Of a stretch of DNA of 31,842 nucleotides, positions 30,983 to 31,842 are shown in pieces. This DNA is from a virus: positions 1 to 31,842 of the IMG/VR virus record IMGVR_UViG_3300042905_000015, one strand, 5' to 3'. Positions within the stretch are counted from its first letter, which is position 1. The number at the start of each line of letters is the position of its first letter. A model generated the notes under the pieces. The model had not been told where the DNA came from, did not search any database, and saw only the letters and a program-made list of their open reading frames with translations. Both the position numbers and the translations under genes were made by a program.

Positions 30983-31198
30983 ATGAACACACAAATACCC
31001 CCAGATGAGCGCCGACAACTGGCAGAAAAAGTTGGCATAAACGAGCAATACCTCTACCAATGCCTCACCGGCAGACGTGAGATGTCAGCATGGGAGGCCG
31101 TGAGAGTGGAGCAGGAAAGCCAAGGGCGGCTCACTCGCAAAATGGTGTGCCAGGGCAGCTGGCAGTCTATTTGGCCTGAGTTGGTGGAGACAACGTGA
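30983..31198 (+). CDS. YdaS/Cro-like transcriptional regulator
   Basis: 71 aa from ATG 30983; a TTG 9 nt upstream is a weaker start. Residues around 13-45 (QLAEKVGINEQYLYQCLTGR, then REMSAWEAVRVE) form a helix-turn-helix of the Cro/YdaS type, and the end SIWPELVETT is also typical. It lies divergent from the early operon with GCTAGA sites upstream of both, so it probably represses the early promoter and itself. No clear ribosome binding site precedes the ATG. Its stop overlaps the methyltransferase start (GTGA). Confidence 0.8.
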   Translation: MNTQIPPDERRQLAEKVGINEQYLYQCLTGRREMSAWEAVRVEQESQGRLTRKMVCQGSWQSIWPELVETT

Positions 31199-31842
31199 AT
31201 GAGTTGGCTCTTTTCGCGGGCGCTGGTGGAGGAATACTCGGAGGCCATTTGCTCGGATGGCGAACAGTCTGTGCCGTTGAATGGGAGCAATACCCCGCAA
31301 GCGTACTGTGCGCCAGACAAAATGACGGGCTTCTCCCGCCTTTCCCGATTTGGGATGACGTACAAACCTTTGACGGAAAGCCGTGGCGAGGAATTGTTGA
31401 TGTCGTATCTGGCGGCTTTCCATGCCAAGACATCTCAGCCGCGGGGGGGGGGGGGGAATTGATGGCGAAAGATCAGGAATGTGGCGAGAAATGGCGCGGA
31501 TCATTCACGAAGTACAGCCTGGATTCGTTTTCGTGGAAAACTCACCAATGCTCACTTCTAGGGGACTTGGAAGAGTTCTCGGAGACTTGGCCAAAATGGG
31601 GTTTGATGCGAAATGGGGAGTGTTGGGAGGCGAAGATGTTGGGGCCGTTCATAGAAGAGACAGAATTTGGATTGTCGCTTCCAACGATAGTCAAATCAGA
31701 CTCAAATGCGACATTAAAAAACAGATTCCTAAATTCACGCCATTTCCGTGGGGCAAAGATGTCAGAGGGATTGAGGATTTGCGAAACAGATCCGACCTCA
31801 GTCCATCCATCATTTGGCGAAAAGACTATGGGGTGGCCGACT
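31195..31842 (+). CDS. Cytosine-5 DNA methyltransferase (partial, frame broken at G-run)
   Basis: GTG 31195 overlaps the regulator stop; GGAG (31186-31189) is the ribosome binding site. Motif I is FAGAGGGILGG, the SAM-acid region is AVEWEQYP, motif IV with the catalytic Cys is SGGFPCQDIS, motif VI is FVFVENSPM, and motif VIII is HRRDRIWIVA. Up to 31443 the frame starts at 31195; after the 14-G run the methyltransferase sense continues in the frame beginning ATT at 31458, so a one-base gain (or two-base loss) in the run restores it. The 3' end, with motifs IX and X, lies outside the window. It would protect phage DNA from host restriction or mark it. Confidence 0.88.
   Translation, partial: MNELALFAGAGGGILGGHLLGWRTVCAVEWEQYPASVLCARQNDGLLPPFPIWDDVQTFDGKPWRGIVDVVSGGFPCQDISAAGGGGELMAKDQECGEKWRGSFTKYSLDSFSWKTHQCSLLGDLEEFSETWPKWGLMRNGECWEAKMLGPFIEETEFGLSLPTIVKSDSNATLKNRFLNSRHFRGAKMSEGLRICETDPTSVHPSFGEKTMGWPT
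31199..31842 (+). CDS. Overlapping reading frame inside the methyltransferase gene (partial, putative)
   Basis: From ATG 31199, 4 nt after the methyltransferase GTG, a second frame encodes a protein-like sequence: MSWLFSRALVEEYSEA, GFSRLSRFGMTYKPLTESRG, then after the G-run DQECGEKWRGSFTKYSLDSF, SWKTHQCSLL, FSETWPKWGLMRNGECWE and an end with HPSFGEKTMGWPT. With one G added it stays open for all 644 nt to the edge. The protein is rich in Trp and Cys and not low in complexity. I recall similar predicted phage proteins starting MSWL-SRALVEE, but have not checked this. It may be a true overlapping gene or a frame kept open by the methyltransferase codons. Confidence 0.45.
31443..31456 (+). repeat. 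14-G homopolymer run
   Basis: Fourteen consecutive G lie in the methyltransferase gene just after the catalytic PCQ motif. It is the longest homopolymer noticed in the window. The run coincides with the frame break of both overlapping frames. It may be a sequencing or assembly slip, or a real slippage site. Confidence 0.9.

Follow-up and report, generated by a model that had tools for sequence, protein, structure and literature searches.

The window analysed here, the whole of a 31,842-base virus record (G000), ends within a C5-cytosine methyltransferase gene that occupies its last 648 bases. A second protein-like frame runs through the same gene on the same strand. Does this frame encode a protein of its own and, if so, what does that protein do for the enzyme? 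The original prediction took the second frame for a possible conserved overlapping gene encoding, for example, a partner or an inhibitor of the methyltransferase. In the following, the methyltransferase frame is called alpha and the frame at +1 relative to it is called beta.

As predicted, the alpha frame opened by the GTG exhibits the methyltransferase motifs through the catalytic PCQ; it resumes in another frame past a run of 14 Gs, both pieces matching PF00145 (Table 1). Given the same shift at the G-run, beta is open to the window edge, again as predicted, and yields both WPKWGLMRNGECWE and HPSFGEKTMGWPT. Without a correction at this point, the ORF starting at ATG 31199 is only 87 aa long, and positions 31195-31842 form one open chimera. 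With 15 Gs instead of 14, alpha stays in frame. No other run of seven or more Gs occurs in the window. Another viral record (G001) shares 1,336 nt with the window at 100% identity, the 14 Gs included, and provides the ends of both proteins: alpha with motif X (VDRVSAIGNGQIPRVAATAW), which lies beyond the window edge (the completed alpha is L426), and beta, which terminates with KFQEWQQQHGQYSVKEFND and a stop codon. Upstream, the TGA stop (31196-31198) of an HTH/YdaS-like ORF overlaps the alpha start and adjoins the beta ATG. Coupled translation of this ORF with alpha and beta is plausible, and the ORF perhaps also exerts regulation.

Table 1. Features of the methyltransferase locus in the window
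Feature	Positions	Strand	Evidence or remark
HTH/repressor-like ORF upstream of alpha, 74 aa	30974..31198	+	phrog_35 1.3e-4; YdaS-like match below the Pfam cut-off
GGAG, Shine-Dalgarno-like	31186..31189	+	5 nt before GTG 31195, 9 nt before ATG 31199; sequence
Alpha, N-terminal part (GTG start; motif I to catalytic PCQ)	31195..31442	+	PF00145 8.5e-10; phrog_363 3e-23; translation
Present ORF, a chimera of alpha N-terminal part and beta C-terminal part, 216 aa to the edge	31195..31842	+	stop reached in G001
Beta, N-terminal part, +1 frame, ATG 31199 (MSWLFSRALVEEY...)	31199..31442	+	ATG conserved in 74/74 homologues
Catalytic PCQ of alpha	31420-31428	+	
14-G run, directly 3' of PCQDISAAG	31443..31456	+	alpha and beta each shifted by one base; same run in G001
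Alpha, C-terminal part, in the frame of 31197 through the shift at the G-run; motifs VI (ENS) and VIII (RRDR)	31455..31842	+	PF00145 2e-12; translation
Beta, C-terminal part, in the frame of 31195: WPKWGLMRNGECWE and motif-IX-like HPSFGEKTMGWPT	31456..31842	+	phrog_1008 1.9e-8; phrog_16143 1.9e-4; tblastn matches in 32 phage records
Motif-IX-like HPSFGEKTMGWPT of beta	31804-31842	+	

Conservation of the second frame

Homologues were gathered with a related phage's methyltransferase frame as the query, so that selection of the set did not depend on the second frame. In essentially all of the nearest 80, an open +1 frame begins just past the methyltransferase start and extends to a few codons before its stop, over 230-320 codons. 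Across 75 distinct viral homologues, which are related by descent and hence are not independent trials, 2 stops are observed in the +1 frame versus 372 expected by within-gene codon permutation. As a control, 119 neighbouring ORFs exhibit 4.8 +1 stops per 100 codons, and none of them is stop-free. Codons of the type xTA occur in motifs IV-VIII 0/616 times before A or G versus 68/321 times before C or T. The avoidance is thus limited to the contexts creating a +1 stop.

Further tests, concerning the start codon, third-position divergence and profile scores, agree with the stop avoidance. The second codon of alpha is AAT in 73 of 74 homologues and TAT in the remaining one; either leaves the +1 ATG, so that the beta start is kept in every case. 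Asparagine elsewhere is encoded by AAC 408 times and by AAT 300 times (58% AAC). Synonymous change in alpha, the third positions of which are the second positions of beta, is suppressed across the overlap: its d3/d1 ratio is 1.4-2.1 versus 1.7-5.2 in homologous neighbouring ORFs at matched divergence. A beta profile built from bacterial and archaeal loci only scores 315 bits on the viral loci versus 138 and 165 bits on recoded or permuted nulls preserving alpha, and 74 of 74 viral loci score above all of their own nulls.

Phage methyltransferases of the Streptococcus, Clostridioides and T4-like types were chosen as negative controls. The T4-like enzymes act as such, exhibiting 50 +1 stops versus 64 expected over motifs IV-VIII. 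As clean controls, the other ordinary single-chain enzymes failed, since the Streptococcus and Clostridioides types (L438-L597) keep the +1 frame open over motifs IV-VIII (0 stops versus 166 and 132 expected, respectively). In both types, four-fold divergence over these motifs is about half of that in the remaining gene.

Beta is a real conserved gene: the second frame exhibits stop avoidance, a conserved start and purifying selection, and both frames are conserved and under selection. The proposal of a conserved overlapping gene, open far beyond chance, is borne out, with homologues of the second frame found at other loci and nearly no stops among them. That the second frame is a mere shadow of the conserved methyltransferase, kept free of stops by codon usage or by constraint on the amino acids, is improbable in the extreme: part of the beta-profile similarity does remain in the alpha-preserving recodings, but the confinement of stop avoidance to +1-stop-making contexts, its absence in neighbouring ORFs and its weakness in T4-like enzymes, the suppressed alpha third positions and the conserved beta ATG all contradict it. 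A shadow frame arising through codon bias was ruled out by the stop counts, by the profile scores relative to the nulls and by the context specificity. The suggestion that any C5 methyltransferase yields such a frame was ruled out by the T4-like enzymes.

The relation of beta to the methyltransferase

Alpha exhibits motifs I-VIII and X, including I, IV (PCQ), VI (EN), VIII and X, the last being read from G001. A motif-IX-like pattern is found in 0 of 74 alpha sequences versus 60 of 74 beta sequences, and beta contains a nearly invariant NP..EWLMG.P..WT region. Alpha does not unite a target-recognition domain with motif IX in one chain. Its structural model exhibits a confident core (residues 1-178), a segment with pLDDT below 50 over most of residues 181-228, and then the motif-X helices; the model aligns with M.HaeIII and M.HhaI across about 172 columns. 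This mostly disordered segment occupies the expected place of a target-recognition domain. When the C-terminal half of beta is aligned to a single-chain enzyme of a mycobacteriophage, it falls between motifs VIII and X of that enzyme (alignment probability 96%). A search of the beta profile against the PDB gave no convincing relative by sequence, beta had no match in Pfam, and its structural model is of low confidence (pLDDT 59), too poor for use.

The small polypeptide of the methyltransferase M.EcoHK31I is encoded in another frame inside the gene of the large one. This two-polypeptide C5 methyltransferase (YGGCCR) is described as having motifs I-VIII and X on the large chain and motif IX on the smaller, with the predicted target-recognition domain placed in the larger polypeptide (PMC3404938); both proteins are required in vitro (PMC3404938, citing Lee et al. 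1995). Compared by motif layout as described there, the present locus likewise has motif IX on the second polypeptide. In contrast to M.EcoHK31I, it is found in phages, is very widespread and has a G-run at one particular site; its beta, starting 4 nt downstream of the alpha start, spans the whole gene; and target recognition would probably lie in beta rather than in the larger chain. In M.AquI, alpha has motifs I-VIII and beta the rest, according to the description in PMC3404938. A similar division is seen in the mycobacteriophage "DNA methylase" pairs Goose gp80/gp79 and Firecracker gp6/gp5, the genes of which overlap, with motifs I-VIII on alpha and the rest on a beta in another frame. In M.AquI and these phage pairs beta also has motif X, and the overlap of the phage pairs is partial, unlike that in the window. 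The split with IX and X both on beta is found in Goose, L126, L163 and L176, and is not that of the window type, where X is on alpha. An overlapping frame within a phage methylase gene is also known from ShiLan, in the form of an out-of-frame HNH endonuclease (PMC11855218). Unlike this mobile insertion encoding an endonuclease, beta lacks a Pfam match and spans the conserved core.

Because alpha lacks motif IX, beta contains a motif-IX-like element and M.EcoHK31I offers a precedent, beta, judging from the sequences, probably serves as the second subunit of a methyltransferase made up of two polypeptides. For the same reason, of the two roles first suggested for beta, that of a partner fits better than that of an inhibitor. 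We consider it fairly likely that both chains of an M.EcoHK31I-like two-polypeptide C5-cytosine methyltransferase are encoded by the same piece of DNA at this locus, with the G-run toggling both proteins. Alpha would supply SAM binding, catalysis and motif X. The C-terminal element missing from it, comprising motif IX and probably also target recognition, would be contributed in trans by the coextensive beta. The N-terminal half of beta, overprinted on motifs I-VIII of alpha, would probably be a docking module.

Beta might instead regulate or inhibit the methyltransferase as a separate protein and be no catalytic subunit, which we regard as unlikely. Such a role would suit the Streptococcus-type product, a protein of about 140 aa (phrog_16143, as is the Clostridioides product) without motif IX, and the fact that an open N-terminal half of beta is retained also in genes whose enzyme has motifs IX and X of its own. 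Own-frame motifs IX and X are present in 30 of 41 distinct Streptococcus-type enzymes; since such enzymes keep the +1 frame open, the supply of motif IX cannot be the whole function of beta. A regulator is, however, at odds with the window family, where alpha is devoid of motif IX in 74 of 74 cases and the beta element aligns at the right place of single-chain enzymes. Moreover, the Streptococcus and Clostridioides betas end in DILE..YFLS, which T4-like enzymes have in the methyltransferase frame, so that these betas look like an enzyme piece too. This motif is located in the +1 frame, 9 codons after motif VIII, in 35 of 41 Streptococcus and 18 of 20 Clostridioides sequences, and in the methyltransferase frame in 7 of 9 T4-like enzymes. 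Given this difference of frame, beta may have originated in a frameshift downstream of motif VIII, by which part of the enzyme came to be read in the +1 frame. L434 and L440 are near-identical Streptococcus phage methyltransferases, one of which is split into two genes after residue ~250 and the other intact.

Returning to beta as an enzyme piece, we tentatively put forward, at slightly less than even chances, that overprinted betas represent a general class among phage C5 methyltransferases. In this class the piece following motif VIII would have shifted to the +1 frame and gained an N-terminal module overprinted on motifs IV-VIII, this module being retained also where alpha possesses a motif IX itself; in one branch, both proteins would be switched together by a G-run for phase-variable modification.

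The G-run as a possible switch

A run of at least nine Gs at this site was found in at least 154 viral contigs (at least 119 and 35 in the scans). Among the matches listed, 150 (including the window, L061 and L144) were resolved, of which 104 are in frame and 26 and 20 are shifted by one base either way; beta always shifts in parallel with alpha. When clusters with near-identical flanks are counted once, 78 exhibit the in-frame state and 18 and 17 the shifted states, again among the matches listed. Run lengths differ inside at least nine clusters with flanks of at least 95% identity (e.g. 9 and 10, 14 and 15, 11 and 12), although most lengths come from metagenome assemblies, where PCR or assembly slippage is possible, especially at 13 Gs or more. 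The 46 frameshifted genes among the matches listed are otherwise mostly intact, with other early stops in 1/46 for alpha and 2/46 for beta. The locus thus combines a coding homopolymer, length polymorphism among close relatives and an otherwise intact gene, as a phase-variable locus does. These data suggest phase variation acting on both proteins, though a slippage hotspot is another possible reading of the run. The one-base shift assumed in the original prediction is confirmed, but as a recurrent switch, by its looks, rather than a mere correction. Slippage at the run would shift both frames by one base, so that a single event would switch both proteins off or on; the window would represent an off state. 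We infer that beta is produced and associates with alpha, that the two together methylate DNA and that the G-run, more than a mutational hotspot, is a functional switch.

Coding homopolymers (poly-C or poly-G) toggling a methyltransferase are known from phasevarions, described for bacterial type III enzymes (PMC3711429). The present homopolymer is likewise in a methyltransferase coding region, but here a C5 gene of a virus and a pair of overlapping proteins are concerned. A G-run as a fixed feature of the family was ruled out, at least nine Gs being present at this site in 1 of the 80 nearest homologues. Along with this run, two C-runs, of 10 and 13, inside the overlapping gene after motif VIII (L024:2994 and L076:3003) are the only G or C runs of nine or more in the 405 kb of nearest-80 loci; the C-runs are a possible further slippage site. 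A scan for runs at the glycine-rich motif I revealed G-runs in about 13 related methyltransferases, with 9-13 Gs in L343, L356, L363, L400, L409 and others, L363 and L400 being seemingly frameshifted by them. In a bacterial genome locus (Gallionella MAG, L144:2746), a 9-G run is located at the same site as in the window, with the opposite shift.

Two other explanations of the run were considered. Transcriptional or ribosomal slippage at the run, giving a little alpha-beta fusion and involving no DNA switch, would account for the single open frame that the alpha N-terminal part and the beta C-terminal part form in the -1 state. We find it rather improbable, as the length of the run itself varies between near-identical contigs and the run is not required, 79 of the 80 nearest homologues being without it. 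Somewhat less probable again are sequencing or assembly errors, or gene decay, as the origin of the frameshifted runs. Long G-runs are error-prone and most of the contigs are metagenomic, but runs of only 9-11 Gs are frameshifted as well, the 14-G run is identical in G001, and the shifted genes have few other early stops. Under the preferred reading of the run as a DNA switch, our searches of open-licence papers gave no description of a phase-variable phage C5 methyltransferase, so that the probable switch appears as undescribed in that literature.

Distribution and annotation of the overlapping genes

When bacterial and archaeal genomes were searched with the beta alignment, 80 loci belonging to many phyla were obtained, nearly all of which exhibit the +1 overlap described above. 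These loci, probably prophages for the most part, were selected by the beta pattern itself. A search of E. coli for a restriction-modification copy comprised only 4 genomes. In Pseudomonas phage phPA-G (L004), the annotated CDS is the +1 frame and alpha is absent from the annotation; in most other annotated phages, alpha is the annotated one. The beta products correspond to phrog_1008 (window type) and phrog_16143 (Streptococcus type). Both PHROG families are labelled "DNA methyltransferase", after the overlapping gene, and we found no note of their being out-of-frame products; nor did the open-licence papers searched describe such an overlap in phages.

The observation behind the original prediction was confirmed and its interpretation supported, and the overlap is far more widespread than could have been seen from one sequence. 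As same-strand gene overlaps in phages go, it would be one of the longest and most widespread. Gene finders permit one gene here, so that hundreds of phage and prophage genomes are annotated with half an enzyme, or with the out-of-frame half misnamed "DNA methyltransferase". If the G-run is a switch, the DNA modification of phages would change randomly, like that of some bacteria, a matter relevant to their evasion of restriction.
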